Positions 2,349 to 60,170 of a stretch of 64,000 bases of DNA are shown here, piece by piece; the stretch's first letter is position 1, and every line of letters starts with the position of its first letter. The DNA is taken from the NCBI GenBank assembly GCA_026874595.1, contig CM049311.1, positions 62,457,453-62,521,452 of the forward strand, written 5' to 3'. Position numbers and translations under genes: made by a program. The notes below the pieces were generated by a model that saw only the letters and a list, made by a program, of their open reading frames with translations, had not been told where the DNA came from and did not search any database. This DNA comes from Sipunculus nudus. Its lineage: Eukaryota > Annelida > Sipuncula > Golfingiida > Sipunculidae.

Positions 2349-3319
2349 CAAGAAAACATTTGCCAGGTGACAATGTCGAAGTCAGAGTGGTACAGGTGGA
2401 GTGAGGGATGGATTGAGTGGTTTGTCATACCACTCGTGAATATAGTCCACTTAAACTCTGAGAAAAGGGCATAAACTTAATCAACAAAAACACCTGGCAC
2501 CACCTCTTTGGTTTATAAAAACTCTCCAAGAAGGATTGACATGCCAAATTTCAGACCAATACCTTGAACCATTCCTAAGATATGAGCAATTTTCACCCAA
2601 GCAAATGTACAGATGGACAGCACAGGAAAACAATTGCAGATGGCGCCTCCAGTCTTGAGTACAACATGGAGGAGTCCAAGATATATGGACATGCTCAATT
2701 TTAGGCCAATATGGCACACCACTCCTAAGAAAAGAGCAGTTATTAATTCTACGGATATGGGGAGATAAGTGGCTCCACCTGTCCTGTTTACGAGAAACTT
2801 TCCAAGATGGTTTGGATATGCCAAATTTCAGACCAATACCTTGAACCACTTCGGAGATATGAGCAATTTCCACACAAAGCACATGAATGGATGGACACCA
2901 CAGGAAAATGATTGCAGATGGCACCACCAGTCTTGAGTACAAGATGGAGGAGTCCATGATCTATGGATATGCATAATTTCAACCCAATACATTGAAGATC
3001 CACTAAGAAGAACAGATGGCAAATGCACAGATGGATGCTACACAAAGTGTTGTAGGTGGCGCCACCAGACAATTACAAGATGAAGAGATCCAAGATCTAT
3101 AAACATACAAACTTTCAGCTCAATACATTGAGCCAACCCTGAGATATCGGCTGCTATCTAAAAGACACCCAGATTCAGACTGCACAGAAAGGATTGCAGG
3201 TGGTGCCACCTGTCTTTCTTATGCACGACTACATAGGTGAGGGAACAACTATGCCGGGTAACGGAAAGATCGGTCCAAGGGTCTCAGAGGAGTTCTCCAG
3301 AAACGAACACAGTTTTTGA
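2349..3319 (+). mobile_element. Diverged F1-like element inserted in F2
   Basis: The left part resembles the start region of F1 copies (a GTGAGGGATGGATTGAGTGG block) and the right end carries the F1 GTCTCAGAGGAGTTCTCC block. Internal units carry variants of the GGTGGCGCCACC palindrome about every 125-150 bp. The surrounding F2 sequence reads ATCACATTTTTAA on both sides (2336-2348 and 3320-3332), a 13-bp direct repeat that could be a target-site duplication. It is an old copy: both F1 terminal hairpins are eroded. No coding capacity. Confidence 0.6.
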
Positions 3320-3518
3320 ATCACATTTTTAATTATTTCGGGGATACTTACCAGCCCCATAGCTATGAGGATATGGGTAACAGAGACCTAATATCATATT
3401 TCCATGAAGACTTTTCATGGACCTCCCTAGATGTCAAATATGAAGATTCTAGGTCAAGTGGTTACGATTTGTGCCCTGTTACAAGATGAGGCTTTATTTG
3501 AAAGTCTCAAAAGAGAAA
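3320..3518 (+). repeat. Family F2 tandem unit, right fragment
   Basis: F2 sequence continues after the insertion with the GATATGGGTAACAGAGACCTAAT block near 3370 and the AGATTCTAGGTCAAGTGG block near 3444. It stops where a G-type start (ACAAGGGACCTATGGG) begins at 3519. Confidence 0.65.
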
Positions 3519-4483
3519 ACAAGGGACCTATGGGTCACTATGCTCAGCTGAAGTTGACCTTGAAGGTAAAAATCTAAAATAATATCAAATGGAGATGCTG
3601 TGTAAGAGGAAGAGGTAATAAAGGCCATGATTGGTTTATATGATTGGTTTGTATTGATGAGCAAGAAATTGTTGCAAATAATATTTTGTGACCTAACCAT
3701 GTGTTTCCTAATGTTGAAATTGAAGCATGTGAGCAGTTTGTGAACAAATGATCTGTAATATTACCATGATCATTAGTTGGCTTTTTGATTAACTGTTGAC
3801 ATTTCAGTAGTTTACACATTTGTTCAACTGAATCTATTTTTTGTATAATATATATTATTAAATATAAATGTATTTTTTTTAATGAAATTTATACAGTTGA
3901 AATATAACTAATTAACAACATAAAACAGGGCAAACAAAGCCTGATCTCAAATTCTGCTGAGGCAGGAAAATAATGAACAAATGTTCGTAATAAATCCTCA
4001 TTTTTTTATTACATCAATTTTTTTATTATAAGTTTATATTTCTATACATTTCCAATATAACATATATATCCGAATATAAAAGTTGATTCATAATTCTTAA
4101 TTGCATCATCATAAATCTCAATCTTGTCAGATAACACCACATCATTCATACAAATGTTTATTTATGTTTTACCACAAAAATATATCTTTTAAATCTGCAA
4201 AACAATAAATATCTTAAAATAATACTTGACTTAGATTTCACAATTTTTAAATGTGTCTTTATTTATCCATAATGTGCTTCATATTTTATAAATTTAAGCA
4301 TACTGATGGGTTCAATTATATTTGTTAAAATCATTTAAAAGAAAACTGATTTCTTTAAAAATGCCACATTACACAACATTGCATCTTCTTGATTACACCT
4401 TGAATTACCTTTTCAAGGAAAGTTTTTGCATATCGGAGTGGAAACAGCATAACAATGAAGGAGATACAGTGAAAACAATAACA

Positions 4484-5958
4484 ACTAGAATACGGGTAGT
4501 CGACAAGCGACTACGTGTATCCGCCAAAATCAGAGAAGGACGGGTGAAGTGAGGCATGGATTGAGTGGCAAGGGGATATAGAGTTACATATGTAAAATAT
4601 TAGTATTGGATCTCTGCCACATAAACATGATTGTAGGTGGCGCCACCTGTTATTTGAACGAGAAACTATCCAAGATATATACAAATGCAAAATTTCAAGT
4701 GGAAAAGTCAAACCACTGCAGAGATATGAGTGATTTTATCCCACAGCAGACAAACAGATGGACGCTGTGCAAACATGGTTGCAGGTGGCGCCACCTTTTG
4801 TTGTGTATGTTATAAAGCTATCCCAGGGCTACATTTGTGGAAAATTTTTTTCCGGATCGGTCAAACGGTTCCCGAGATATGAGCCTGGATGTCTGCAGCG
4901 TTAACATGAATGTAGGTGGCGCCACCTGTCATAAAATCAAGGAAGCTATCTAGGATGTATACGCATGCGGAATTTTAGGTGAATTAGTCAAACCATTGCA
5001 GAGATATGAGTGATTTTAACCCCAGGCAGATGAACAAATGGACACTGTGCAAACATGGTTGCAGGTGGCGCCATCTTTTGTTGTGTATGTTATAAAGCTA
5101 TCCCAGGGCTACATTTGTGTAAAATTTTTTTCCGGATCGGTCAAACGGTTCCCGAGATATATGGGTTTATGTGTGGAGCGTTAACGTGAATGTAGGTGGC
5201 GCCACCTGTCATAAAATCAAGAAAGCTATCTAGGATGTATATGCATGCCGATTTTTAGGTGAATTAGTCAAACCACTGCAGAGATATGAGTGATTTTAAC
5301 CCCAGGCAGATGAACAAATGGACACCGTGCAAACATGGTTGCAGGTGGCGCCACCTTTTGTTGTGTATGTTATAAAGCTATCCCAGGGCTACATTTGTGT
5401 AAAAAATTTTTCCGGATCGGTCAAACGGTTCCCGAGATATATGGGTTTATGTGTGGAGCGTTAACGTGAATGTAGGTGGCGCCACCTGTCATAAAATTGA
5501 GAAAGCTATCTAGGATGTATATGCATGCCAAATTTTAGGTGAATTAGTCAAACCACTGCAGAGATATGAGTGATTTTAACCCCAGGCAGATGAACAGATG
5601 GACACTGTGCAAACATGGTTGCAGGTGGCGCCACCTTTTGTTGTGTATGTTATAAAGCTATCCCAGGGCTACATTTGTGTAAAAAAATTTTCCGGATCGG
5701 TCAAACGGTTCCCGAGATATATGGGTTTATGTGTGTAAACAGACGCACAAACGGACGCTGGGCAGAGACGAAAGGTCAGAGGTCAAGGTCACTTGGTTAG
5801 GCACCAGTTCACATGTGACCCGATAATTTGTGTAAGTTTTGGAAAAATCTGTCCAGTAGTCTCAGAGGAGTTCTCCGGAAACGAACGCGGCGGCGGCGGC
5901 GGCGGCGGAACCCGGTCAAAAACATAGTATCCGCAAAACTTCGTTTTGGCGGATACAA
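4484..5958 (+). mobile_element. F1 element, complete copy
   Basis: 5' end: ACTAGAATACGG, then a hairpin with arms GTAGTCG/CGACTAC (4496-4514), then GTATCCGCC. 3' end: a hairpin at 5927-5956 closing with GGCGGATAC, the reverse complement of the 5' GTATCCGCC. The core is a tandem array with GGTGGCGCCACC palindromes at 4636, 4784, 4915, 5064 (one base changed), 5195, 5344, 5475 and 5624, so spacing alternates 148/149 and 131 bp (280-bp period). A CGG-repeat tract (about 5888-5908) precedes the end. No coding region; short ORFs across it follow the repeat. Architecture resembles Helentron-associated (HINE/pearl) elements; that assignment is inference. Confidence 0.75.
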
Positions 5959-5991
5959 TTATTACTGCATAACACTTGGTGGGTTGGGTAC

Positions 5992-6013
5992 GGGGGGGGG
6001 GGGGGGGGGGGGG
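5992..6013 (+). repeat. Poly-G tract
   Basis: A run of about 22 G just right of the F1 3' end. It produces a spurious poly-Pro reading frame on the minus strand. Confidence 0.9.
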
Positions 6014-6050
6014 AGGTGATTGGGATAGTGATATGAGAATAACTGTACAC

Positions 6051-6141
6051 CTGTCACAGCAGGGGATCTCCCCCAGTGACTGTAACAAATCAGAAACCCT
6101 GGCATAGCTGACTTCCATTGACCTGGAGTGGGACCCTGCAT
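6051..6141 (-). CDS. Candidate exon 12 of the KIAA2012-like gene
   Basis: On the minus strand a TTACAG acceptor (just above 6141) opens a 91-nt frame whose phase fits the phase-1 end of exon 11. It reads about 30 codons without a stop, contains SMEVSYARVSDLL, and ends at an AG|GTGTAC donor. GC is near 50%, higher than its surroundings. Against it: the donor is weak, the frame is short enough to be open by chance, and it lies between two halves of what looks like one G-family element, so it could be part of the repeat or captured host DNA. Confidence 0.35.
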
Positions 6142-6204
6142 CTGTAATCTGTAATCAAAGCAAATGACTACAACAAGGCCTCAAGAAAAAATCAATAACT
6201 AGCC

Positions 6205-6915
6205 TAATTTTCAAGCTTTTATTTTCAACTTTCAGATTTAAACAAATAAAATATTTATGTTTACATGCTGTGAAAATTGAATCAATGGTACTAACAGAAA
6301 AAAAACGTGCCATGGTCAAAGTTGGGCAAAATTTAAGGTACTGATTTTATTTTTATGTGAATAACTTAAAAAATTTACAAAATTCAGATCTAATTTTGGG
6401 TAAACAATTGAATCTTAATTAAACATAGTAATATACTTGGGGAAAATAGACTCTAGTTTCAAAATTTTTCATGTTAAGTGAGTAAATATTTTTCCTGATT
6501 TTTTACAAAGTCCATTATGTTTGGGCCCATAACTTAAAGAATTTATACTTAACAGACTTAATTTCTGGCATGTACATAGAAACTATACAGAGGAATATTT
6601 ATGGTAAATATGAGGAAAAACATATGAGTGGTTTTGATATTAGGCAGTCCTGAAGTGTGAAAATAGGTTTTTAATAAAAAATTGAGGTTTTTCCTTAATT
6701 TCTCAAAGGAACGAAGTCGCAAAGACCCAGTTTTCGGCTTGGTAGGAGATCTTGGGGACATCTAACATTATGCTGACTTTTGGATTCCTAGGTCTTACGG
6801 TTTCAAAACGTGCCACATCTACGGACGGACGGACGGACGGACGGACAGACGGACGGACGACGGACAATGGACCACGACTATAGCTCAGATGACTTATAGT
6901 CAGCTGAGCTAAAAA
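6205..6915 (+). repeat. G-family 3' module (CGTGCCATGGTCAAAG unit)
   Basis: Shares CGTGCCATGGTCAAAGTTGG, GGGCCCATAACTT, TTTTGATATTAGGCAGTC and GACCCAGTTTTCGG blocks with copies at 21400-21970, 22090-22660, 23610-24190 and 24250-24948. It ends with a GACG/GGAC microsatellite (about 6819-6862) and the terminal hairpin TAGCTCAG...CTGAGCTA. Here it is a single module; in the 4.8-kb element modules come in pairs. Confidence 0.75.
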
Positions 6916-8296
6916 TGCATACAAACTAAAAAAAAAATAGGTGGCGCCACCAGTCTGCAGGAACTGATGAAACACTCCATGATCAATATGCATGCAAAAA
7001 ATCATGGCCATCAGTACATTAGTTATTCAGATACTTCAGCTTTTGTATCACATTTTTAATTATTCTTAGGGTTACTTAGAAGCCCCATAGCTCAGAGGAT
7101 ATGGGTAACAGAGACATAATTTCAGGTTTTCAAGGAGATTTTTCATGGACCTCGCTTGATGTTAAGTAAGAAGATTCCAAGTCCAGTGATTACGATTTGT
7201 ACCCTGTTAACAGATGACATCTTCTTTGAAAGTCTCAAAAATAAAGAAAAAATTTTTGTAAAAATTGGAAAAAATACAAGTGGAGCCACCAGTTTGCAGG
7301 AACTGATGAAACACTCCATGATCAATATGCCTGCAAAAAAATAATGGAGATCAATGCATTAGTTATTCAGATACTGGAGCTTTTGTATCAAATTTTTAAT
7401 TATTCTGAGAAGTACTTACTAAGAAGGATATGGGTAACAGAGACCTCATTTCATGTTTTCATAGAGACTTTGAATGGACCTCGCTTGATGTCAAGTTAGA
7501 AGCATCCAGGTCAAGCAGTTACAATTTGTGCCCTGTTAACAGATGACAGCTTCTTTAAAGGTCTCAAAAATAAAGAAAAAAATTCATAAAAATTGGAAAA
7601 AATACAGGTGGTGCCACCAGTCTGCAGAAAGTGATGGAACATCCCATGATCAATATTCATGCAAATAATCATGGTGATCAATGATGTAGTTATTCAGATA
7701 CTTCAGCTTTTGTATCAAATTTTGCATTATTCTGGGGTGGGTATTCGGAGCCCCAAAGCTCAAAGGATATGGGTAACAGAGACCTAATTCCAGGTTTTCA
7801 AGGAGATATTTCATGGACCTCCCTGGATATTAAGTTTAAATATTCCAGGTCCAGTGGTTATGATTTGTGCCCTGTTAACAGATGACAGTTTCATTGCAGG
7901 TCTGGAAATAAAAGAAAAAATTCGTAAAAATTGGAAAAAATACAGGTGGCGCCACCAGTCTGCAGGAAGTGATGGAACATCCCATGATCAATATTCATGC
8001 AAAAAATCATGGTGATCAATGCAGTAGTTATTCAGATACTTGAGCTTTTGTATCAAATTTTGCATTATTCTGGGGGGTTCAGAGCCCCAAAGCATGAAGG
8101 ATATGGGTAACAGAGACCTAATTTCAGGTTTCCAAGGAGATTTTTCATGGACCTCCCTTGATGTCAAGTGAAAAGATTCCAGGTCCAGTGGTTACGATTT
8201 GTGCCCTGTTAACGGACAGCTGGATTGACAGAAGACCGATGGACAAAGGGTGATCGCTATAGATCAGATGACTTTCAGTCAGCTGAGCTAAAAAAA
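6916..8296 (+). mobile_element. F2 element, four tandem units with 3' end
   Basis: Four units with palindrome variants at 6940 (GGTGGCGCCACC), 7279 (AGTGGAGCCACC), 7607 (GGTGGTGCCACC) and 7945 (GGTGGCGCCACC), so the period is 328-339 bp. It ends with a CTATAGATCAG...CAGCTGAGCTAAAAA hairpin. The 5' end is missing: it abuts the G 3' end directly. The last base lies only about 43 bp from the exon 11 donor. Confidence 0.75.
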
Positions 8297-8339
8297 GATA
8301 TAAAAAAGCAAGAATTGACGATAAGCCCTGCACACCTAC

Positions 8340-8435
8340 CAGGTGCTGAAATAGAACTGCTTTTCCTGCTTGCAGTTCCAGGTGTTCCTGTTGATGGCAC
8401 TCTGCCTGTTAGTCTTGACTCACTGGGCAGAGATG
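8340..8435 (-). CDS. KIAA2012-like exon 11
   Basis: Acceptor TTTTCAG before 8435, donor GTAGGTG after 8340. The 96 nt enter in phase 1 (completing an Ala codon) and leave in phase 1. The peptide is Ser/Thr/Pro-rich and includes RVPSTGTPGTASRKSSSI. It continues the disordered style of exons 6-10. No next exon is securely identified on its 3' side; repeats start within 50 bp. Confidence 0.65.
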
Positions 8436-11400: not shown

Positions 11401-14400
11401 AAAAGATCCAGGCTATAGGCTGCAGGAGCCATTCCTCTGACTACTGAGTAATTAATAATGTCTTACCTGGCATGTAATTCGTATGAGACAAATAATCCAA
11501 AATATTGCAAAACAGTTCACAATGACTGCGATATGAGGACAGCAATACCAGTTGATGACGTCAGTCAATACCATGTCATGCGTCATCGACCTTTGTGACG
11601 TCATTATTATATTGTACGACGCTCTCGCTACCATGGGCATGGAAGACCTTCTGTGTAGGAACGTTTTGGGAGCTCATTGTAATAATTAGATTAAAAGGGC
11701 AGAGCATTTGGGCCCTGGTGGATAGGTCAATTGGACTTGGACACGGGCTTGGACTCAGGTTCCAGATGTATCAGGCTCAATGAAGGTGGACTTGGACTTG
11801 AACCTCAAGGACTCGGACTTGGACTAGAATAGCCTGGACTTGGACTAGCCCTTGGACTCAGATGGGATGAACTTGATTACATTACTGTCAGTGAGACTAA
11901 TAAAATAGCCATTGTGACAAATCTGAAGATGTGAATAATGGTGATTATAACTGATATGATAGCCAATACTAGTTTTCTGGTCAATAAGACATATGATAGT
12001 CAATTTGACTTATACAGTTGTATGACCAATACAACATGAAAACCAGACTGACCTTGTCCTCTGAGACAGGTGATCAGCAGCTTCAGATGGTGATGAGGGC
12101 GGGGCGTTGGCCCCTCCTGTTTCCGGTGGGGCCAGCTGCTCTCCTGTTCCACCTGTGATCATAGGAACAGAACCAGTCAAATAACATTCATAATGCTCAA
12201 TACAACACATAATGCCAGTGACAATACATACTGATATGTAAAACTGGTGAACTGATCATTTCTTGCTTGTCCACATTAAGAACAAAAGGAGGTTTCTGTT
12301 TTAAATATTTGTATTTGATTTTTCCTTTTAAGAGAATATATAAACTTGAAATAATTATGCACAGAATCTGGAGGTATATTGGGACCTAAGGCAGCACCTG
12401 TTGATGGAACATGAAATCAAGAGTTCTTTCTCCAGCAGAAAGAAGAAAAGTAATTCTAGTTTAAAATATTATCAATGTGAGTTATCAAAACACTCTCTCA
12501 TGTTGACACCAAGCTACTCACCCACTTAATATATGATGTGAAAAATATTGCTAGATATAATGCCCTCTCTTATGTATAATAAACCAAAGATTTTATTAAT
12601 GATTTCTAAAATACATGAAAAACTTATCAACCATATGAGAAATTTTTACTTTGTATACTGATTTAATGATACCACTTGAGAATATTTTGCTTCTGTACAT
12701 TTACTATGCAACTGACAGAGTATTCTTCTTTCATTTGTTGTTTTTGCAAATTATAAGATGACATAATTAATATTCCAGAAATGTATTCTTTAAATAATGA
12801 ACTCTCAAGAATGGTAAAACTGTATCATTGACTAAAACAGACATAAACATACACAAACATGTAAAACATCTAGGTATATCTGTTAAGCAAGAAATCTGTC
12901 ATAACCTTTATTATTTAGAAGTTCAATTTCCCACCTGTTGTCTTACCTCTTGATAGCCGCCTCTTGGCAGCGCTGTCATGACTATACTGACTACGCACTG
13001 ACTTGTGACTTGCTGGTCGCCACTCCTGATCATGAACAACTTCCGAGTAAACCCTGCTTACAGGGGACTGAGCCCTACTACTGCCATCTACGGGTGAAAT
13101 CAGGAACTAGTGTGTGACAGGTTAACATTCACATGCAGTGTTACAGCATAAGTGTATGTACATTTTGTTATGGGTAACATTGTGAAGGAAGCTTGTGCAC
13201 ATGTACTGATGACCTAATACCTGATGTAAAGCTATAAGATGGGAGGTATCACAGTCTGTATGGTTGATGAAAAGTTGAATTAAAGAAACAACAAAGTAGC
13301 TGAAAAGTTAACATATTAACAAAGATGAAACAGTTGACCATATGGAAAAATTTAAAGACCTTTGAAAGGCAATACAACATTTGAAACAGCTGATTGACAG
13401 AAACTGCTGAAACAGCTGACAAAGTGTTGAAAAGATTTACTGAAGGGTTTCTGCTGAGATAAAGGAAATATCAGCAATGAAAATGTTGTTTCGGAAGATC
13501 TCTTGAGAGTATAAACAGTTCAGACAACTAGAAGAGGGTATTTCATAGAAAAACTGCTGTCAGTTGAGAAATTATCAGTGTGTATCAAAGATATAACAGT
13601 TGACTGGGAAAATGTTCCGAGACAAATGAATCTGACAGTGACTATTAAAGATTAAACAGCTGACTAAGAAAATGTTCTGGCAGTTGAATCTGGCAGTAAT
13701 TATTCAAGAAGCATCAATTGAGACTTCTGAGACAGCTGGGACAAAATATTTCACTGAAAACATGTGATAAGGAGAAAGTACAGAGACAGCCAATTAACAT
13801 GATGTATATAATTAAGGTAGAAAAGGGTATGGCAGAACAACTGATACAACTGATGAACACTTGATCTTGACACAGTGCTGAAGCAGTGACAACTGAAAAT
13901 AGTGTCACAGATGGAATTTAGAATAAAACAAAACTGCTGTGACAGTTGAAGGAAATATCACAGAAGAAACAGCTCATACAGAGATATGGCTGCATGGAAT
14001 GTAAATGCTTAAACAGTGGAATGGTAACAATTTCTGAGACAGTGTAGTGTTACATTTCAGACTGTTACACTGATGCAGGGGATTGGGAATTTATGGTTGG
14101 GGGACGGTTTGGTGGGGGAGTATTATGAGTTTCATAAAACATTAAATCAATGAGGGGTAATACACAGTTAACTATTAATAATATATATACAAGCCATATG
14201 TTAACACCAGCAGCCAATGATTTTAAAGGTATTACCTGTTCTTTATTTTTCATTACCCACCAAGCTAATTTGGACAGAATTTATAACCCCCATCCCCCCA
14301 TGTTGTTCTTTCTCTCTGTCCATATTTGGACAAACATAACAAAACATACCTGTTGGATCTCAAGAAAATATTGAAAATAGTTAAGAACCTCGAGGCAATC

Positions 14401-47400: not shown

Positions 47401-47612
47401 TTGAATGGTCATCTAAATTAACAACTGTCCTATAAATATGACTGTTGATATGACTTTTATGTAAACATGACTTTCTCTTCTCAACACTGCATAGAATGAA
47501 CTCGAACGCTAAGTAGTTAAGTAGTTATATTGAGTGCTAAGGAAAAAATCCATCAAAGCCTGCTTAATTAATACTATACAAACACAATTCTCCTGAAAAA
47601 AACAAATTATGT

Positions 47613-47707
<95 letters not shown>

Positions 47708-50700
47708 TCTAAAACGAGAATTACTTTATGTTAAATAAATTATTTCTCTCTTCTCTCTTTTTCAAAACTGATTCATTGTTGTAAATTTGTAATAAATGGT
47801 GTACGTGTCAAAATAATAAAATACTATCTCAATCTATCCCTATATTTATTGATGTTTTAGTCATAAAGAGCCGATAGAGTCAATAACTTAGCGTTGGCTG
47901 AAACCTGCGTTCCAGTATTCCCATGCAATTTGCAGCAACAGTTATCATTTTTAAAATGACTTGAGTTAAAAATCAGTACATCATATAGGCGATCACTGGA
48001 ACAGAACAAAGCCTGTTAAGCAATATTTGCTCTTCTGCTAAATGACCTAAGAGGGAATGGAAAATAAGTGTACATGTATTACTCTAAATATAACTTTGCC
48101 TTCTCTTGTGAGGTGAGCGGGTGTCTTTATCCATGTTTGATTATTCAGATTAGCATGTTAAATATTCTTCACTGCATAGCAGTAAGAACAGATCCATGAG
48201 AAAATCTATTTTAGTAATAGCTCTTCAAAATTCTTACTCTCACCAACAACCAATTTAATTCAAAGTGAGTTGTTCAGCACTACAGGTTGCCAGAGAGTTA
48301 TGCTTCAATAACATGGACAGTTTGATGGTTTTATTCCTGAGTCAAATATAACAACAGAACTTAAAAGTAATTGAAAAGTAATTGTTAAAACAATTACTTT
48401 TCAAAAGAAATCGATTACAAGGACAATTACTTTTCAGGATTTCAAAAAGTAATCAATTACAAGTACAATTACTTGAACAAGGCCTACAGGCCTAATGCGA
48501 ACCTGTGCAAAGTTTAGGAGTATGAATGGAGGTTTATTTTTAAAATTTAATATTTATCCTTCTAAGTCCTGCATATCTACCTTAGTCATTATGTTTTCAG
48601 CAAAATGGACATTTCTGACCTGCAAGTTTCGGACTAGGGCATTTTAAAACCAGAATATGGGTAGTTAACAAGCCACTATGTTTATCCGCAGAAATCAGAG
48701 TGGGACGGGTGAAGTGAGGCATGGATTAAGTGGCAAGGGAAATAGAGCGTGATGTGTTGCATATTAGCATGGATGTCTCGGCTTAAACTTGAATGTAGGT
48801 GGTGCCACCTGTCATAAAATCAAGAAAATTGTCCAGGATGTATAAACCTGCAAAATTTCAGGTGGATAAGTCAAACCACTGCTGAGATATGAGTGGTTTT
48901 ATCCAAAGGCAGTTCAACAGATGGATGCTGTGCATAAGTGGTTGCAGGTGGCACCACCAGTTTTGCCTATGATGAAGAGCTATGTGAGATCTATACACAA
49001 GCAAATTTTTGGCCCAATCGGTCAAACTGTTCCCGAGATATGAGCTTGGATGTCTACAGAGTAAATGTGAATGTAGGTGGCGCCACCTGTCATAAAATTA
49101 AGAAAGCTGTCCAGGATGTATAAACCTGCAAAATTTCAGGTGGATAAGTCAAACCACTGCTGAGATATGAGTGATTTAATCCCAAGGCAGATGAACAGAT
49201 GGACGCTGTGCATAAATGGTTGCAGGTGGCGCCACCAGTTTTGCCTATGATGAAGAGCTATGTAAGATCTATACACATGCAAAATTTTGGCTCAATCGGT
49301 CAAACTGTTCCCGAGATATGAGCTTGGATGTCTGCAGAGTAAATGTGAATGTAGGTGGCGCCACCTGTCATAAAATCGAGAAAGCTGTCAAGGATGTAAA
49401 ATACCTGCAAAATTTCAGGTGGAAAAGTCAAACCACTGCTGAGATATGAGTGATTTAAACCTAAGGCAGATGAACAGATGGATGCTGTGCATTAATGGTT
49501 GCAGGTGGCGCCACCAGTTTTGCCTATGATGAAGAGCTATGTGAGATCTATACACATGCAAAATTTTGGCCTTATCGGTCAAATGGTTCCTGAGATATGA
49601 GCTTGGATGTCTGCAGAGTAAATGTGAATGTAGGTGGCGCCACCTGTCATAAAATTAAGAAAGCTGTCCAGGATGTATAAACCTGCAAAATTTCAGGTGG
49701 ATAAGTCAAACCACTGCTGAGATATGAGTGATTTTATCCCAAGGCAGATGAACAGATGGACGCTGTGCATAAGTTGTTGCAAGTGGCGCCTCCAGTTTTG
49801 CCTATGATGAAGAGCTTTGTGAGTTCTATACACATGCAAACTTTTTACCCTATTGGTCAAATGGTTCCCGAGATATGAGCTTGGATGTCTGCAGAGTAAA
49901 CGTGAATGTAGGTGGTGCCACGTGTCACAAAAATCGAGAAAGCTGTCAAGGATGTATAAACTTGCAAAATTTCAGGTGGATAAGTCAAACCACTGCTGAT
50001 ATATGAGTGATATTATCCCAAGGCAGATGAACAGATGGACTCTGTGCAAAAATGGTCGCAGGTGGTGCCAATAGTTTTGCCTGTGATGAAGAGCTATGTG
50101 AGATCTATACACATGCAAAATTTTGGCCCAATCGGTCAAAAGGTTCCTGAGATATGAGCTTGGATGTCCACAGAGTAAATGTGAATGTAGGTGGCGCCAC
50201 CTGTCATAAAATCGAGAAAGCTGTCCATGATGTATACACCTGCAAATTTTCAGGTGGAAAAGTCAAACCCTGAGATATGAGTGATTTTAACCTAAGGCAG
50301 ATGAACAGATGGATGCTGTGCATTAATGGTTGCAGGTGGCGCCACCAGTTTTGCCTATGATGAAGAGCTATGTGAGATCTATACACATGCAAAATTTTGG
50401 CCTTATCGGTCAAACGGTTCCTGAGATATGAGCTTGGATGTCTGCAGAGTAAATGTGAATGTAGGTGGCGCCACCTGTCATAAAATCGAGAAACCTTTCC
50501 AGGATGTATTAACCTGCAAAATTTCAGGTGGATAAGTCAAACCACTGCTGAGATATGAGTGATTTTATCTCAAGGCAGATGAACAGATGGACGCTGTGCA
50601 TAAGTGGTTGCAAGTGGCGCCTCCAGTTTTGCCTATGATGAAGAGCTTTGTGAGTTCTATACACATGCAAACTTTTTACCCTATTGGTCAAATGGTTCCC

Positions 50701-52923
50701 GAGATATGAGCTTGGATGTCTGCAGAGTAAACGTGAATGTAGGTGGTGCCACGTGTCACAAAAATCGAGAAAGCTGTCAAGTATGTATAAACTTGCAAAA
50801 TTTCAGGTGGATAAGTCAAACCACTGCTGATATATGAGTGATATTATCCCAAGGCAGATGAACAGATGGACTCTGTGCAAAAATGGTCGCAGGTGGTGCC
50901 AATAGTTTTGCCTATGATGAAGAGCTATGTGAGATCTATACACATGCAAAATTTTGGCCCAATCGGTCAAACGGTTCCTGAGATATGAGCTTGGATGTCT
51001 ACAGAGTAAATGTGAATGTAGGTGGTGCCACCTGTCATAAAATCAAGAAAGCTGTCCATGATGTATACACCTGCAAATTTTCAGGTGGAAAAGTCAAACC
51101 ACTGCTGAGATATGAGTAATGTTATCCAAAGGCAGATGAACAGATGGATGCTGTGCAAAAATGGTTGCAGGTAAGGCCACCATTTTTAGTGTATGTTATG
51201 AAGCTATCAAAGGGCTACATTTGTGCAAAATTTTTAGCCTGATCGGTCAAATGGTTCCCGAGATATGTGAGTTTATGTCTGGAAACAGACGCAAAAATAG
51301 ACGCTGGGCAGCAAGGAAAGGTCAGAGGTCAACCAAAAATTAGGTTGCAGCAGTTCATATGTGACCTGATGATAAACCCGATTCGCTTAAAATGCAAAGC
51401 AAGTTTTTTCAAACAGTTGAAAGATATATTTCCAATAATCTGGGAATTCTGCATCTAAACATTGTGTCTAGACGTCTAGACGCTGTGTCTAGACGTCTAG
51501 ACACATTGTCTAGACCCCCCCCCCAAGCCAGGTCAGTTGCCATGGTGATGTCTGGACCCCACCTGTTTGTACTGAGTGAACTCTTGACTTGGCTGCTGAA
51601 ATTCAGTATGAAGTCAAATCTGTTTTCAAATACAGAAAGCCTTTTTCAATTGGCTACAATGCTTTTTTTAAACTGTATTTACCCAATCTATTCTTATAAA
51701 ACTGGCAGAACCCTACCATAGAATAAATCTTGTAAAGTTTAAACCAATCAGCTGAACAGTTTCATCATAAATCACTGTATAAGCTAGAAGAGTTTAAAAT
51801 TACGTTTTCGCTTGTAAAAAACACATCAATGTAGGTGGCGCCACTAATACCTCAAAATCAGATATGACATATGTGACAAACATTAGTATAAAATTTGGTC
51901 ATTATAGCTCCAGCTGTTCCTGAGATTTTAATTTTAGTGTGCTTTTTTGGACAGATGACAGTTCAACCTCCTGCAACTTGGCCAAAAATCTCCAAACTGG
52001 AACCATTTGAACAAACTTGAGAGAGATTGTTCCAGGGATCATTTCTGTGAAATATTGGACAATTTGGCTGGACAGTTTCAGGGAAGAAGATTTTTAAAGG
52101 TTTTTAAGCTTTTTCTCTATAAAATCTAAATTAATGCAGATACCAAATAATAAGCTCCAGGGCACCAAGTTTCACATGTGACGAATTCTTACATGTAATT
52201 TGGAGCTGCTAGCTCCAACAGTTTCTGACTTACAGCCATGGACGGCGGAAAGGCCAGCCCTGGACGGCGGACTGCTGACGGCTGAGGGCGGCAGACGATG
52301 CTGTGCCATGGCATAAGCTCACAGGTTCGCTAAAAAGTAATTAAATAACATGGACAGTTTGATGGTTTTATTCCTGAGTCAAATATAACAACAGAACTTA
52401 AAAGTAATTGAAAAGTAATTGTTAAAACAATTACTTTTCATAGAAATCGATTACAAGTAAATTACTTTTCAGGATTTCAAAAAGTAATCAATTACAAGTA
52501 CAATTACTTGAAAAAGTAATTGTAAAAGTAATCAATTACAAGTACAATTACTTGAAAAAGTAATTGTAATTACTCTTGGACCCAACTCTGATTCACACAC
52601 AATCACTGGCAGATTTTACAGAATCTGAAGATCTGGTGGGAAAAAAAACTATCAGCATTTTTAAGCAGGAATAAAAAAATTCAAATTTGTGCAAAATGCA
52701 CAATCTTTAATCAAACATTATGCACGTGAAGCTTGTTAATGAGTTTCAGGAGTGATATATGCAGTGATGTGAGAGATTGTGACTCAATTACTAACTCAAT
52801 TATGTAAATTTCAGTTCTATTACCAACCGGTATAAAAACTTACAACAAATACATAATACAGGACTTTCTTGAAAGTCTTTCATTTGAAATTTCTTTTTAA
52901 ACTATGAAAAGATAATATATATA

Positions 52924-52994
<71 letters not shown>

Positions 52995-58900: not shown

Positions 58901-60170
58901 CTTTTAGGAAAGGTCATGACCCAAATTTAAATAAATACCTCATCTTATAATCCATATCTATGTATATGCACAATATGAAGTTATATATCAATTAGTTTTT
59001 TACTTTTAATGCTCACAGTACTTTCAAGTGGCAGTGATGGTGTTATTGAAAGGAGCCAAAATGAAAAGGACAAAGGTAGTGCCACCTATCTCCCAATGAA
59101 TTCAAAGCTATCCAAGATCATCAGTCAATTTGTTTTTGGGCCAATCCATGCATCCCTTATTGAGATATTGAAGATTAAGTGTGATTTTCATCAAATATGG
59201 AAATATTCAAGGTCAAAGCCACTCTCATAGTAAAGCTCATGGCCCCAATTTAAATATACCTCATTCCATAATCCACATAAATGTATATGCATAATATGAA
59301 AGAAATCTGTCAATTAGTTTTTACTTATAATGCTCAGCACAAAGTACTGTCAGGTGGCAAGGATGGGGATGTTAAAATGCGCCTGAACAAGAAAAGGATA
59401 ATAGGTGGCGCCACCAGTTTCTGGTACATGTCTACTACACGACAACACTATCCAAGTTCTTTGGTCAACTCAATTTTTGCAATCAAAGCAATATTTCTTG
59501 ATATATTCAAGAAAGTGTGTGATTCCCAAAAAAAATTGATGTATTCAAGGTCACTCTCCTAGTTAAGGGCATGATCCTTACCTTTTGCCCTCTTACCCAT
59601 AATATCCATATGTCATGAAACCATAGTATCTCCAAACTTTGTCTAGGGATACAATTACCATAATTTTTTTAATAACGACTCATTCTTGATTCTTGATAAT
59701 GGCAGGAACAACTAAATCCCATAATCTCTCTACCAGCAGGCAATGTGCATGAAAGTGACCAGATGCAGAGATGGCAAGCAAATCACTGATCATTATCACT
59801 AACAACTGCAAATTTGTGATTCTGCCAGATACAATTTAAAAACCTACAACTTGGCTCGATAGGCCTACAAACTCTGACTTCACTGCGTAAGACACTAACA
59901 TTTCATGTGAAACATTCATATCATAAATGTATGAAAAAATACTTAGACTTCTTTACTGATCATTTCTTATATAATACAATCCTGAAACTTTCAGAGTTCA
60001 TATTTAAAAAAAAACTAACATAAAATTTTTTTTTAAATATTCTAAATAAACAAACAGCTTTTCTGTTTAAGATAAATTAATAAAAATATGAATTGTACCT
60101 TTCCAACATCTCGGTCTGGATGATACTGTCCATCCCATGTTCCAAACCCTCGAGCCAGTTGTGTGAACAT
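8340..60170 (-). CDS. KIAA2012-like gene (span of 11 exons, 3' incomplete)
   Basis: Eleven minus-strand exons (60099-60170, 57848-58153, 32335-32489, 16308-16463, 16015-16136, 14854-15456, 12947-13087, 12053-12152, 9857-9948, 9257-9514, 8340-8435) join to 2101 nt, 700 codons plus one base, with every GT-AG junction in matching phase and no stop. The N-terminus (MFTQLARG) and the block LPKTYITRKGALLLFS around residues 72-87 resemble vertebrate KIAA2012, a protein without an assigned biochemical function. Residues from about 180 on are low-complexity, rich in S, T, Q and R, with an acidic patch (FEDDVDDQDVD). The C-terminal part, which I recall as long and charged in vertebrates, is not in the chain, so the gene probably runs on past exon 11. 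Introns 2 and 3 are 25.4 and 15.9 kb and hold most of the repeats. Confidence 0.75.
8436..9256 (-). other. Intron 10
   Basis: AT-rich single-copy sequence between exons 10 and 11; no repeat family or other exon recognised. Confidence 0.6.
9257..9514 (-). CDS. KIAA2012-like exon 10
   Basis: Acceptor CTTTTAG above 9514 and donor GTACCT below 9257 frame 258 nt, entering and leaving in phase 1. The encoded stretch is rich in G, S, D and Q, contains NEGQGDSVIIDSDLSSK and VSSRKSRHST, and shows no fold or domain I recognise. GC and codon use differ sharply from the flanking introns. Confidence 0.75.
9857..9948 (-). CDS. KIAA2012-like exon 9
   Basis: Acceptor TTTGACAG above 9948, donor GTGAGC below 9857; 92 nt entering in phase 2 (completing Arg) and leaving in phase 1. 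Encodes an acidic, Pro/Gln-containing segment with SASVDDLDEIDREPKGYDTS. The frame stays open past the donor to an in-frame TAA, so an alternative end within intron 9 is possible but less likely. Confidence 0.7.
10900..12050. repeat. Degenerate short repeats in intron 8
   Basis: Two decayed types. Around 10900-11100 and 11890-12040, units resemble GACTAATATGATGGTCAA. Around 11100-11190 and 11720-11870, units resemble GGACTTGGACT. The second pattern recurs at low fidelity in many animal genomes. The rest of intron 8 (9949-10900) shows nothing recognisable. Confidence 0.55.
12053..12152 (-). CDS. KIAA2012-like exon 8
   Basis: Acceptor TGATCACAG above 12152, donor GTCAGT below 12053; 100 nt entering in phase 1 and leaving in phase 2. 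Encodes a Pro/Ala/Gly-rich linker (GEQLAPPETGGANAPPSSPS) that is GC-rich relative to its introns. No domain recognised. Confidence 0.7.
12153..12946 (-). other. Intron 7
   Basis: AT-rich, no repeat or exon recognised. Confidence 0.5.
12947..13087 (-). CDS. KIAA2012-like exon 7
   Basis: Acceptor ACCCGTAG above 13087, donor GTAAGA below 12947; 141 nt, phase 1 in and out. Encodes a basic Ser/Arg-rich stretch including SPVSRVYSEVVHDQEWRPAS and ending in KRRLSR, probably disordered. Confidence 0.75.
13260..14060. repeat. Degenerate CAGCTGA/CAGTTGA repeat in intron 6
   Basis: The motif ACAG(C/T)TGA recurs at roughly 40-70 bp intervals, often followed by GGGAAAATGTTC-like sequence near 13605 and 13665. 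It looks like an old decayed minisatellite. The rest of intron 6 (14060-14853) is AT-rich without recognisable content. Confidence 0.5.
14854..15456 (-). CDS. KIAA2012-like exon 6 (largest exon)
   Basis: Acceptor GATTTCAG above 15456, donor GTATAG below 14854; 603 nt, phase 1 in and out, about 201 residues. It starts acidic (EDTEDEGKSES), continues as a Ser/Arg segment (SRSISRKTSGRSSK), then a Val/Gln/Ser stretch (HVAVQTPVQSVSV), a MGMADWDRGDFAHV segment that is the most conserved-looking part, and ends with an acidic patch (GGIFEDDVDDQDVDPSLL). No enzymatic motif or membrane segment seen. Reading through the donor meets a stop within nine codons, which supports the splice. Confidence 0.8.
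15457..16014 (-). other. Intron 5
   Basis: AT-rich, nothing recognised apart from an A-rich stretch near 15675. Confidence 0.5.
16015..16136 (-). CDS. KIAA2012-like exon 5
   Basis: Acceptor CTTTGTAG above 16136, donor GTGTGTAA below 16015; 122 nt entering in phase 2 and leaving in phase 1. Encodes ASQRSFQVLSAERLTAHL and YLGRPTSSHLEIHK. The donor is not the strongest type but phases on both sides agree. Confidence 0.7.
16308..16463 (-). CDS. KIAA2012-like exon 4
   Basis: Acceptor CATTCCAG above 16463, donor GTAAAT below 16308; 156 nt, entering in phase 2 to complete a Ser codon left by exon 3 and leaving in phase 2. Encodes a basic Ser/Thr-rich stretch with RAGTARLQRAPTTGNLSDRS and LFTRPTSTASQNSSG. 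The intron on its 5' side is 15.9 kb and almost wholly repeats. Confidence 0.75.
16464..17117 (-). other. 3' part of intron 3, single-copy
   Basis: Between exon 4 and the tandem duplication. Several decayed CTAGA-containing stretches occur at 16580-16680; nothing else recognised. Confidence 0.5.
17455..19283 (+). mobile_element. F4 element, copy A
   Basis: Start ACTAGATGTGTCGG with a hairpin GTGTCG-GAA-CGACAC, then a second hairpin GCCCCGCCTGGGGC. The core is tandem units of about 180 bp with GGTCAAAAGTAGGTCAAC blocks. The 3' end is shortened to GTGGCGGGGGCATAAAA. An F7 element (17701-18649) is nested inside. An F2 element follows directly after its A-tail. Confidence 0.7.
17701..18649 (+). 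mobile_element. F7 element nested in F4, copy A
   Basis: Starts ACTAGAATATTAGC with a short hairpin CTGATAATCAG, contains two related units with palindrome-like cores (GGTGGTGCTACC near 18010 and GGTGGCGCCACC near 18317), a GACGGACAG tract (about 18560-18602), and ends TAGCCCATCAG...TGATGAGGGCTAAAAA, a hairpin. Units include AGGTCAAGGTCACCCATC blocks. Confidence 0.6.
19284..19985 (+). mobile_element. F2 element, copy A (short)
   Basis: Starts ACAAGTGACCCATGGGTCA (TGACCCATGGGTCA is a perfect palindrome), then GCTCAGCT. Ends after a GGACAGAC tract with GTCAGCTGAGCTAAAAA. Relative to the copy B counterpart (28246-30256) it has lost about 1 kb plus one further unit, all at tandem-unit boundaries. 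Confidence 0.8.
20084..25823 (+). mobile_element. F5 element, copy A: interrupted and truncated
   Basis: 5' part at 20084-20149: ACAAGAGACCCAGGGGTC then GTTCACTCTGTGAA. The element resumes at 24949 (TGTTTCAGAAAGATC) after the G insertion, with units of about 330 bp whose cores are GTAGCGCTACC, GGTGGTGCCACC (25421) and GGTGGCGCCACC (25750). It is cut off in the third unit at the duplication junction, so its 3' hairpin is absent here. Confidence 0.75.
20150..24948 (+). mobile_element. G-family element, complete 4.8-kb insertion
   Basis: Start ACAAGGGACCTATGGGTCAC and GCTCAGCTG; end GTCAGCTGAGCTAAAAA after a GGACGGACAG tract and the hairpin TAGCTCAG...CTGAGCTA. The second copy of the duplication has the uninterrupted site (GGTGATTAAAAAAAAATG at about 30410-30426), which fixes both ends. 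Inside, two paired blocks (21400-22660 and 23610-24830) each hold two modules with CGTGCCATGGTCAAAG-type sequence. The left third is AT-rich and holds nothing recognisable. No ORF suggests a helicase, transposase or RT, so it must move, if at all, by proteins supplied elsewhere. Confidence 0.8.
26585..28245 (+). mobile_element. F4 element, copy B
   Basis: Same structure as the copy at 17455 with a few substitutions; the first hairpin is damaged (GTGTCGGAATGACAGG), and it has one F4 unit fewer. An F7 element is nested at about 26831-27790. Confidence 0.7.
26831..27790 (+). mobile_element. F7 element nested in F4, copy B
   Basis: Near-identical to 17701-18649, with an altered and slightly longer GACGGACGCCAGAC tract near 27700. 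GGTGGCGCCACC is near 27446. Ends with the same GGGCTAAAAA hairpin. Confidence 0.6.
28246..30256 (+). mobile_element. F2 element, complete copy
   Basis: Starts ACAAGTGACCCATGGGTCA, ends GTCAGCTGAGCTAAAAA. Six tandem units are visible, with core palindromes GGTGGCTCCACC (28439), TAGTGCCACC, GGTGGCGTCACC, GATGGCGCCACC and GGTGGCGCCACC. Unit boundaries carry the GATATGGGTAACAGAGACC block. It also preserves the uninterrupted sequence at about 28412-28450 where another copy (33912) has an F6 insertion. Confidence 0.8.
30356..31763 (+). mobile_element. F5 element, complete copy
   Basis: 5' end ACAAGAGACCCAGGGGTC followed by GTTCACTCTGTGAA; 3' end a GGTGGACAGT-type tract then AGTTCACAGAGTGAACTAAAAA. 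The 5' TTCACTCTGTGAA is the reverse complement of the 3' TTCACAGAGTGAA. Four core units of about 335 bp lie between, with GGTGGTGCCACC at 30898 and 31236 and AGGTGGCGCCACC near 31577. No coding capacity. Confidence 0.8.
31764..32334 (-). other. 5' part of intron 3
   Basis: AT-rich single-copy sequence between the F5 element and exon 3; nothing recognised. Confidence 0.5.
32335..32489 (-). CDS. KIAA2012-like exon 3
   Basis: Acceptor GGTATTACAG directly above 32489, donor GTAAGG below 32335; 155 nt, entering in phase 0 after exon 2 and leaving in phase 2. Encodes DEASISDQDPAVFLKFLHNL and a following PGGDFSFYLDSVKSQT segment that looks helical and folded rather than low-complexity. Its first 37 nt and its acceptor are repeated tandemly upstream (minisatellite to 33509). 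Only this proximal acceptor keeps the reading frame. Confidence 0.8.
32453..33509 (-). repeat. 61-bp minisatellite derived from exon 3 and its acceptor
   Basis: Seventeen units including the true exon edge, with the CTCACAG mark at 32481, 32542, 32603, 32664 and so on to 33459; period 61 bp, once 63 bp. Read on the minus strand each unit is the first 37 nt of exon 3 plus 24 nt of intron ending in GGTATTACAG, so almost every unit repeats a usable 3' splice site. The units nearest the exon are almost identical; those above about 33180 carry more changes. Confidence 0.9.
33521..33587 (-). pseudogene. Decayed second copy of exon 3
   Basis: The 67 bases align without gaps to 32410-32476 of exon 3 with 10 mismatches (about 85%). 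The exon frame is still open and reads EASLSDQDLAVFLKFFHSL against EASISDQDPAVFLKFLHNL. The first codons and the acceptor are gone on one side, and the sequence diverges after DQE on the other with no donor, so it is probably a relic. It lies at the far edge of the minisatellite. Confidence 0.7.
33588..33911. other. AT-rich intronic sequence
   Basis: No gene or repeat recognised. Confidence 0.5.
33912..34093 (+). mobile_element. F2 element, left part (split by F6)
   Basis: ACAAGTGACCCATGGGTCA start followed by the GAAGAGATTCGTAAAAGG and GCGTAAACTTTAAAA blocks seen at 19284 and 28246. The element resumes at 37854 with TACAGGTGGCTCCACC. Confidence 0.8.
34094..37853 (+). mobile_element. F6 element(s) inserted in F2
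   Basis: Start ACAAGGCCTACAGGCCT with GCGAACCTGTGC; end GCTCACAGGCTCGCTAAAAA, whose CACAGGCTCGC is complementary (one change) to the 5' GCGAACCTGTG. A second F6-type end lies at 36482 (CTCACAGGTTCACTAAAA), so this may be two elements in series. Core units carry GGTGGCACCAT (35580), GGTGGTGCCACC (36032) and GGTGGTGTCTCC (37385). Bounds are fixed by the empty site at 28412-28450. No coding region. Confidence 0.75.
34570..35130 (+). repeat. Tandem repeat inside F6 region
   Basis: Units contain TGGCTGCACTGAGTGAACTC, TTGACCTGTTGC and GCAGTCTGCCAAAGCTATAA; copies start near 34630, 34750 and 35020. About 120-bp spacing for the first pair, more decayed after that. Similar AGTGAACTCTTGACTTGGCT text recurs at 51575 in the other F6 copy. 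Confidence 0.6.
37854..38890 (+). mobile_element. F2 element, right part
   Basis: Continues from 34093: three units with cores GGTGGCTCCACC (37858), a damaged one near 38196, and GGTGGCGCCACC (38534). Ends in a GGACGGATGGACAGAC tract and a CTATAGCTCAG...CAGCTGAGCTAATAAAA hairpin. Confidence 0.75.
38891..41410. other. Intron 2, mostly single-copy
   Basis: AT-rich. A possible 43-nt minus-strand exon at about 39441-39483 was considered and rejected. Nothing else recognised. Confidence 0.45.
41411..43438 (+). mobile_element. F1 element, second complete copy
   Basis: Same start (ACTAGAATACGG, GTAGTCG/CGACTAC hairpin, GTATCCGCC) and same end (CGG-repeat tract, hairpin closing in GGCGGATAC) as 4484-5958. 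It has about two more tandem periods. The left units are more diverged, with GGTGGTGCCACC at 41562, while units at 42115-43130 closely match those of the 4484 copy. Confidence 0.75.
43439..46747. other. Intron 2, single-copy segment
   Basis: No repeat family or exon recognised. GC and CpG rise at 45480-45720, where two inverted TGTTTACC motifs and two CACGTG motifs lie close together. 43600-43900 is also GC-richer but has no splice-bounded frame. Confidence 0.45.
46748..47180 (+). mobile_element. Small element with ACAAGGGCACTGC start
   Basis: Starts ACAAGGGCACTGCAAAGC after an A-run, has two related internal units (GCAAGATGAAAGGTTT near 46903 and 47049), a GGACAGACGGACG tract at 47109, and a 3' hairpin TCGCAA...TTGCGA followed by GGAGATAATAAT. 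About 430 bp, no coding capacity. Same general plan as F1-F7. Confidence 0.55.
47181..48306. other. Intron 2, AT-rich with microsatellite
   Basis: Nothing recognised apart from the (TA)n tract. Confidence 0.45.
47615..47704. repeat. (TA)n microsatellite
   Basis: About 45 uninterrupted TA dinucleotides. Confidence 0.95.
48307..48476 (+). repeat. 170-bp repeat, left copy
   Basis: AATAACATGGACAG start, then alternating AAAAGTAATTG and CAATTACTTTT blocks that can fold on each other. Repeated at 52344. F6 inserted at its right edge. Confidence 0.8.
48649..51372 (+). mobile_element. F1 element, third copy, 3' truncated
   Basis: Start ACCAGAATATGGGTAG with an eroded hairpin, then units of 277-280 bp with alternating palindromes (for example 49076, 49225, 49354). 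Ends in the CAGAGGTCAACC block without the CGG tract and hairpin, so the 3' end is lost. Units near 49781 and 50612 share the same private changes (CAAGTGGCGCCTCC), a three-unit higher-order repeat. Confidence 0.7.
51466..51515. repeat. 21-bp repeat of a 16-bp palindrome
   Basis: GTCTAGACGTCTAGAC occurs at 51466-51481 and 51487-51502, and half of it at 51508-51515, then a C-run. Each full copy is a perfect palindrome with two TCTAGA sites. Confidence 0.9.
52344..52580 (+). repeat. 170-bp repeat, right copy, with extra AAGTAATTG units
   Basis: Matches 48307-48476 and continues through CTTGAAAAAGTAATTG, which is the empty version of the F6 insertion site, and then further AAAAGTAATTGTAA units. 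Confidence 0.8.
52581..53367. other. Intron 2, AT-rich with (TA)n
   Basis: Contains a pure (TA)n tract at about 52930-52992; otherwise nothing recognised. Confidence 0.5.
53376..53897. mobile_element. hAT-type non-autonomous element
   Basis: 522 bp bounded by TAGTGGTGGG at the left and CCCATCACTA at the right, inverted repeats of each other with one change over 10 bp. The 8 bases GTTCCATG occur directly outside both ends (53368-53375 and 53898-53905). An 8-bp target duplication with TAGNG-type termini is the hAT superfamily signature. There is no transposase frame. Subterminal sequence is rich in ATCGAT/GATCG motifs, as if in several inverted copies. Confidence 0.85.
54100..55626 (+). mobile_element. 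F4 element, complete and without F7
   Basis: ACTAGATGTGTCGG start with the hairpin GTGTCG-GAA-CGACAC, then eight or so units of about 160-180 bp with GGTCAAAAGTAGGTCAAC. 3' end: ATGCCCC-GGCCAC...GTGGC-GGGGCATAAAAA hairpin. The 5' TGCCCC and 3' GGGGCA are complementary. No GGTGGCGCCACC core, unlike the other families. Confidence 0.75.
55627..57847. other. Intron 2, single-copy, near exon 2
   Basis: AT-rich, no repeat family or exon recognised. Confidence 0.5.
57848..58153 (-). CDS. KIAA2012-like exon 2 (conserved core)
   Basis: Acceptor TATTTTAAG above 58153 and donor GTAAGT below 57848 frame 306 nt, 102 codons, phase 0 on both sides. It encodes MELPYLTQDGHRHGITVRP, a Ser/Pro linker, then LVLPKTYITRKGALLLFSAP, then a Lys/Gln/Leu-rich helix and ERFTKSVLSFGEE. 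The LPKT..TRKGAL.L.S block is the part I recognise from vertebrate KIAA2012, where a LPKTFSTRKGALILYS-like sequence follows a similar start. The role of this block is unknown to me. Confidence 0.85.
58154..60098 (-). other. Intron 1, with decayed palindrome-unit repeats
   Basis: 58740-59600 holds two related units, each with AAGGTCAAG blocks and a palindrome core: GGTAGTGCCACC near 59075 and GGTGGCGCCACC near 59404, about 330 bp apart. This is an old member of the palindrome-bearing repeats with no recognisable ends. The rest of the intron shows nothing recognisable. Confidence 0.5.
60099..60170 (-). CDS. KIAA2012-like exon 1 (start codon)
   Basis: The ATG at 60170-60168 opens 24 codons, MFTQLARGFGTWDGQYHPDR and DVGK, to a GTACAA donor in phase 0. 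TGA and TAA codons stand in frame five and four codons upstream, so this is the first possible Met. The MFT-x-LxRG start also resembles vertebrate KIAA2012. Any untranslated exon further upstream is not seen. Confidence 0.8.

Follow-up and report, generated by a model that had tools for sequence, protein, structure and literature searches.

A 12-bp palindrome in the tandem units of HINE-type elements of Sipunculus nudus: descent, rate of change and orientation

HINEs are non-autonomous Helentrons that carry subterminal inverted repeats (subTIRs), an inverted copy at the 5' end, a microsatellite and a 3' hairpin (PMC7492417, PMC4067079). In the Cg_HINE elements of Crassostrea gigas, short arrays of monomers, mostly of 140–180 bp, are flanked by subTIR-bearing ends, of which the 5' one has an inverted copy and the 3' one a palindrome, and a microsatellite is also present; the repeats keep a fixed orientation to the ends, and some of the several families have two common conserved segments (PMC7492417). 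The repeats analysed here lie in a 64-kb stretch of Sipunculus nudus DNA, referred to as the window. Their F1 family is like Cg_HINE in having an array between subTIR ends, a 5' inverted copy, a microsatellite, a 3' palindrome and a fixed orientation, a likeness set by published descriptions rather than by monomer sequences.

The palindrome and the elements that carry it

The 12-bp palindrome GGTGGCGCCACC occurs in the window in 35 exact copies and in 69 copies with at most two mismatches, whereas 100 dinucleotide shuffles gave 0.35 on average and never more than 2. The genome (1,426,538,692 bases) holds 111,729 exact copies against 14 of the reversed word; the genomic mean is about 78 per Mb, compared with 35 per 64 kb in the window. 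In a sample made up of the window and 16 random 10-kb stretches, it was the commonest 12-bp palindrome outside simple repeats (62 copies, the next having 6), and AGGTGGCGCCAC was the top 12-mer outside simple repeats (98 copies). Further material came from the surroundings of the eight motif sites that come first in the list for contig C1, from 40 extra C1 stretches of 501 bases with one exact site each, chosen among 100 listed places, and from 12 Helitron-domain loci and a single wider Helentron region; 236,762 bases in total underlie most of the sequence analysis. In the literature, the exact 12-mer was seen in an endochitinase paper, and the inner 10-mer combined with 'repeat' led to no paper on such repeats as judged by title and start of abstract, figures and supplements lying outside the search.

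All twelve exact places named in the first-pass annotation carry the palindrome (the copy put at about 18317 begins at 18315), and its statement that the motif stands once or twice in each tandem unit holds: units of about 280 bp contain two, about 130 and 149 bp apart, and units of 307–340 bp contain one. Its list was correct but incomplete, as it lacked among others the exact copies at 3055, 27445, 29895, 31577 and 38534 and two further F1-type arrays (41562–43118 and 48798–51032).

Coordinates are given for the plus strand unless stated otherwise. At the left of the window a mixed array of divergent units from several families (2229–3210) has an exact motif at 3055 and five more copies with one or two mismatches. 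The first F1 element begins with a 3' hairpin (13-nt arms 4490–4502 and 4508–4520, 85% complementary) that overlaps the outer edge of the 3' subTIR TGTATCCGCCAAAA at 4516–4529. Its tandem array (4636–5635) is built of a 280-bp unit consisting of two related half-units and includes eight motifs, of which seven are exact and that at 5064 has one mismatch. The 5' end (5924–5957, minus strand) comprises the subTIR at 5957–5944 followed by its inverted copy, with a GCG-type run just inside. An F2 array follows at 6940–7956, with one motif in each unit of about 339 bp (6940 and 7945 exact, 7279 with two mismatches, 7607 with one).

An F7 array of 307-bp units at 18008–18326 (18008 with two mismatches, 18315 exact) has a near-duplicate at 27138–27456. 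Shortened F6/F2-type units at 19475–19634 have one mismatch in both motifs; an array of this type, with a unit of about 336 bp, lies at 28438–29906 (29895 exact). By eye, 17500–20300 and 26600–30300 are near-identical blocks in which an F7 array, a 180-bp tandem repeat and F6 units follow one another in unchanged order; F6 units are more numerous in the second block. F5 arrays are located at 25083–25761 (25750 exact) and 30560–31588 (31577 exact); in the first unit of each, at 25083 and 30560, the motif place reads CGTAGCGCTACC, two mirrored changes that keep the inner 10 bp palindromic. A 61-bp tandem repeat of about seventeen copies with 95% matches spans 32451–33508. Two divergent single units (34283–34421) and units of cluster family 6 (35580–36044; 36033 with one mismatch) precede another family 6 unit at 37384, after which F6/F2-type units extend to 38545 (38534 exact). 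The second F1 element (41443–43437) has its 3' subTIR at 41443–41456, twelve motifs (ten exact) in the array 41562–43118 and its 5' subTIR at 43437–43424 on the minus strand. The stretch 48798–51845 holds a third F1-type array, with a decayed 3' end on its left, and after it a family 6 unit at 51834. Two related units at 59075–59415 complete the series, one with an exact motif at 59404 (family 8) and one with two mismatches at 59075 (a cluster of its own).

The ends of F1 have the features of a HINE. The 14-bp subTIR TGTATCCGCCAAAA, within the range of about 11–15 bp typical of HINEs, is exact at both ends of the two elements (4516/5957 and 41443/43437) and has at most two mismatches at other loci. 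Its inverted copy at the 5' end forms arms 5924–5938 and 5945–5959, 87% complementary, beside the GCG run, and the hairpin next to the 3' subTIR has the same sequence in other F1 copies. In F1 copies of either strand for which both ends could be inspected, the units have the hairpin end on the same side, and the same terminal structures recur in either orientation. HINEs are expected to insert in T-rich sites without target-site duplication; among the F1 5' ends listed, a T stands immediately before the element. By its ends, the F1 family appears to be a HINE, a non-autonomous Helentron. We infer that the other palindrome families are HINEs too; ends were checked computationally for F1, and by eye the right ends have ACGG-type runs in F2 and F6 and similar runs in F5 and F7. 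End-like sequence seen by eye at 3517–3560, 19290 and 20150, and at about 6060 of a second locus (L021), consists of a hairpin around GACCCATGGGTC or decayed forms of it beside CTCAGCTGA or similar sequence, and is perhaps the 3' end of F2-type HINEs. The variant GATGGCGCCACC recurs on C1 at regular spacings of about 10 kb and about 5 kb near 3.70–3.77 Mb and 10.74–10.76 Mb, a pattern suggestive of large tandem duplications.

Helentron-type genes with long open frames are present in the genome, and the Helitron N-terminal domain has at least 143 matches (150 of 195 candidates scored). On contig C8 (G000:C8:80132600-80147500; L037, L031 and L038) an open frame of 2,250 codons encodes DUF6570, OTU, Rep, PIF1 and a C-terminal endonuclease, the layout described for Helentrons (PMC4067079). 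Within these 14.9 kb neither the palindrome nor the F1 subTIR was found; a 13-bp inverted match (positions 3341–3353 and 12791–12803) may represent this Helentron's own ends. An AT-rich tandem repeat of 319 bp follows in 5.7 copies (L038, 2232–4086). An autonomous partner of F1 was not found in this region or in 11 loci covering the Rep region only.

Common descent of the units and slow change of the motif

The 144 sites with at most two mismatches were grouped into 25 clusters. With the motif removed, right flanks of 95 bases connect 53 of 300 cluster pairs in register at E<1e-3 and thereby bring 19 of the 25 clusters together. Left flanks link 22 of 300 pairs, whereas reversed controls link none of 300 on either side; at E<0.05 the counts are 77 right and 32 left pairs against 3 and 7 reversed. 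This comparison read every site on the plus strand, before orientation. When both orientations were offered, masked flanks at 35 bits placed between 121 and 125 of the 144 sites in a single component, and no site entered a component in both orientations. With three isolated hits omitted (L010 9401, L014 1574 and window 12125), 20 of 23 families remain, and their right flanks can be aligned for about 85 bases, in most cases with few gaps and for some singletons poorly. In these alignments a block near AACCACTCCTGAGATATG returns at equal distance from the motif, and the common unit of most families consists of the palindrome, about 40 bp and a second block ending near GAGATAT. The 40 further C1 sites matched motif-masked models in register in all cases at E<1e-3 and in 39 at E<1e-5, against none of 40 in the reversed control. 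Matches were obtained for 155 of 253 family pairs, with a mean identity of 62% in the flanks and 90% in the motif, a comparison that includes the three isolated hits and has no shuffled control.

Judged by this homology outside the motif, most families descend from one motif-bearing unit, which makes convergence on a shared site unnecessary as an explanation; for most families, convergence from unrelated origins is rejected on the masked-flank homology together with the empty reversed controls. The families had been described in the first-pass annotation as otherwise unrelated, a view that the flanks contradict. The same annotation had named two observations whose combination would refute a functional site, descent of all families from one unit containing the motif and change of the motif at the rate of its flanks; the former largely holds and the latter does not.

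Motif-masked models gave 186 distinct hits, 163 of which cover the motif place at E<1e-8. Among these, 70 are exact, 144 have at most two mismatches and 159 at most four, but all 144 were model seeds, so that their recovery is by construction and only 19 other units remain. Masked models of another family found 131 places, 110 of them with at most two mismatches; of the remaining 21, sixteen differ from the motif at one to four positions, one of them probably through a shifted alignment, and five at seven or more. Within families, substitutions with gaps ignored amount to 0.046–0.125 in the motif, 0.107–0.226 in left flanks and 0.094–0.184 in right flanks. Of the seven families with at least six copies, six have a lower value in the motif than in either flank, the exception being family 6 in relation to its right flank.

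At non-CpG G/C columns the values for motif and flank are 0.037 and 0.164 in family 0, 0.049 and 0.144 in family 1, and 0.071 and 0.254 in family 2 (40, 41 and 21 copies), corresponding to flank-to-motif ratios of 4.4, 3.0 and 3.5; in families 3 to 6 (8, 9, 9 and 6 copies) the ratios are 5.3, 1.5, 2.0 and 2.4. Counting gaps in the flanks as mismatches had given 4.4, 3.4 and 4.0 for the three largest families; since units with a gapped motif were omitted, this favoured the motif in the earlier rates, in the CpG-retention count and in the mean identities of 62% and 90% given above. Flank windows of 12 columns conserved like the motif number 5 of 125, 7 of 119, 13 of 69 and 3 of 157 in families 0 to 3, and 34 of 123, 31 of 129 and 85 of 152 in families 4 to 6. 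Across families, motif columns carry an information content of 1.4 to 2.5 bits and most columns outside it less than 1, values into which conservation between families is partly built because sites and models were first gathered via the motif, so that families long devoid of it would be missed. The motif extends to the left, with A at −1 and G or A at −3, and by this one-sided extension the conserved site is imperfectly symmetric.

Within these alignments the motif changes more slowly than its flanks. Its CpGs are retained at 0.75, 0.82 and 0.60 in families 0 to 2, compared with 0.50–0.81 for flank CpGs, and are slightly better kept in family 1 (0.82 against 0.60–0.76). As motif CpGs decay much like those in the flanks, the constraint would act on the elements that spread rather than on each copy in the host: inserted copies would decay freely, and the motif would persist because source copies retain it.

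Strand-coherent domains

In the window all 81 units lie on one strand, a count that includes the isolated hit of arbitrary strand at 12125 and in which families outside the main component were set plus by default (F5, F7 and families 6 and 8 do have their second block on the same side). Strand is likewise uniform within every other multi-unit locus, L016, L021, L022 and L024 being among the loci concerned, and 40 of 40 sites between 0.25 and 0.94 Mb of C1 are plus. Genome-wide, a 26-base word from the F1 3' end is evenly divided between forward and reverse (2,689 and 2,688). Its first 100 places (C1, 0.16–14.8 Mb) form 27 strand runs, fewer than the 50.8 (SD 4.9) expected, and not one of 20,000 permutations gave so few; when the set is reduced to one place per 50 kb, the remaining 64 form 23 runs against 32.9 expected (163 of 20,000 permutations). 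The 52 F2 arrays taken alone, derived from the first 100 of 9,000 units, showed no deviation (24 runs against 27.0; 4,987 of 20,000).

The two families agree with each other in strand. F1–F2 pairs within 100 kb agree in 60 of 82 cases, while in 107 circular shifts the agreeing fraction averaged 0.50 and never exceeded 0.69; nearest neighbours within 60 kb agree in 26 of 32 cases. Pooled, the 118 elements form 34 runs against 59.6 expected, and 44 of 60 adjacent cross-family pairs agree (p 0.0002). The longest same-strand runs of the pooled elements on C1 measure 0.90 and 1.43 Mb, and agreement has faded by about 200 to 400 kb. Over the roughly 15 Mb of one contig and the two families covered, F1 and F2 arrays tend to lie in shared strand-coherent domains of about 0.1 to 0.2 Mb, with single runs of up to 1.4 Mb.

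Bacterial IS200/IS605 elements are reported to follow replication forks (PMC5371812). By analogy with them, HINE polarity might be read from the chromosome if Helentrons integrated on the single-stranded arm of a moving fork, the palindrome array serving as an iteron-like site for Rep or a host replication protein; we regard this as speculative and on balance unlikely. Alternatively, the strand of an element could be set by gene direction. GC or AT skew, taken as a proxy of fork direction, had no clear relation to strand over the sampled loci; three reading frames of the window compared with Pfam matched no family. As an orientation control a repeat from outside the HINEs was sought, but no 16-mer passed the filter of four loci. 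Among the titles and abstract openings listed, 15 of 1,105 papers in one case and 3 of 3 in another, none reported a strand bias of Helitron insertion. If fork guidance were true, the genome would be a transposon-written fossil map of fork direction. The strand-coherent domains would allow the question to be put to sequence alone: do eukaryotic rolling-circle transposons follow forks?

Candidate functions of the palindrome and comparison with known systems

To our knowledge, no role has been assigned to the internal repeats of HINEs. Iterons of rolling-circle replicons are short protein-binding sites in tandem. We propose that the ancestral unit, which would form the central tandem repeat of HINEs, had two conserved blocks, the palindrome being the first, and that the families diverged by mutation of this single unit. 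The palindrome and its short one-sided extension (approximately TRYA before it) would be kept because source copies devoid of the motif amplify less well. It would then be a putative double-stranded protein-binding site in tandem, somewhat iteron-like, and candidate readers are the Helentron Rep/helicase or a host replication or chromatin protein. That the palindrome is an inherited block of the HINE unit, kept because source copies need it to propagate, as a putative protein-bound site, is a reading in which we place roughly even confidence; in this reading the palindrome is probably bound by protein. A single 12-bp palindrome with 111,729 exact copies, found in about 20 divergent unit clusters, would point to a specific site within HINEs that can be tested.

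The first-pass annotation had taken the persistence of the palindrome as a sign of function. The slower change of the motif leaves room for this claim, but a common ancestor explains the sharing between families, and motif CpGs decay as flank CpGs do. Common descent could even suffice: the motif would be inherited with the unit, look special because families are recognized by it, and be maintained by concerted evolution. The unit common to the families fits this explanation, as does the second block, conserved though it is no palindrome. Families 4, 5 and 6, in which many flank windows match the motif in conservation, fit it as well and, together with the 13 of 69 in family 2 and the one 14.9-kb Helentron region without the motif, count against a role in propagation. 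Homogenization, however, is expected to act equally across the whole unit, and non-CpG G/C columns change 3.0–4.4 times more slowly in the motif than in the flanks for the three largest families, and 1.5–5.3 times over all seven, so that descent as the whole story appears rather unlikely. A decidedly improbable alternative is a regulatory or chromatin site of the host, where every copy would be bound by a host protein and selected on the host. The palindromic shape, the GC-rich core in a window of about 36% GC and the large copy number are compatible with it; the CpG decay and the commonness of inexact copies (93 of 163 units) are not what it would lead one to expect.

Other readings concern the palindromic form itself. 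Helentrons are thought to move via a single strand, as are Helitron-type elements such as Helraiser (PMC5876387 for the latter), and the motif could fold into a hairpin, GGTG-GCGC-CACC, acting in rolling-circle transfer. The pattern of change makes this extremely improbable: the loop positions G5 and C8 are rarely changed (3 and 6 of 159), stem positions 2, 4, 9 and 11 change more often (16, 14, 12 and 11 of 159), and compensating changes lack a clear excess. In the sampled units, 4 mirrored double changes were counted where 7.9 would be expected; with the CpG pair left aside the count is again 4 and the expectation 2.9. Three of the four are still complementary, two of these three coming from one family, and compensating palindromic changes were not clearly above expectation in this sample. 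Genome-wide, GATGGCGCCATC occurs 431 times against 203 expected from single changes, an excess indecisive for paired change since the sample likewise has more unpaired doubles than independence predicts (74 against 52.5). The binding site for a dimeric protein put forward in the first-pass annotation likewise drew no clear support from mirrored positions in the sample; a protein dimer is possible. The same annotation had suggested a recombination signal. A recombinogenic palindrome would drive array expansion or module exchange with breakpoints at the motif, as reported for the clam repeat phBglII400, in which a 12-bp palindrome is the place of 13 of 16 junctions; in DTC84 a conserved palindrome is situated close to repeat junctions (PMC5139131). 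Flank change at the motif was seen by eye at 19475 and 31577, but among pairs of 157 units one flank switch fell at the motif (19475 with 38534), while each of six other positions had between 0 and 4, and the first units of F1 arrays retain homology for approximately 48–72 bp to the left of the motif. A junction hotspot is thus unsupported here, unlike in phBglII400, and we consider recombination at the palindrome quite unlikely.

The CENP-B box is a short protein-binding site repeated in tandem. Together with iterons, it resembles the putative site proposed here, namely an inherited HINE-unit block kept by source copies, in its arrangement. Compared by description, the bivalve repeats BIV160/Cg170 and the pearl elements CvA and DTC84 combine divergent monomers with two well-conserved motifs, DTC84 being also alike in its conserved palindrome near the repeat junction, and phBglII400 of Ruditapes philippinarum shares an internally repetitive unit with a 12-bp palindrome (PMC5139131). 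Junctions of phBglII400 cluster in the palindrome, whereas those in the 157 units compared here do not. Cg_HINE differs in another respect: several of the oyster clusters are reported to be unrelated to one another (PMC7492417), whereas most of the S. nudus families examined share one unit.
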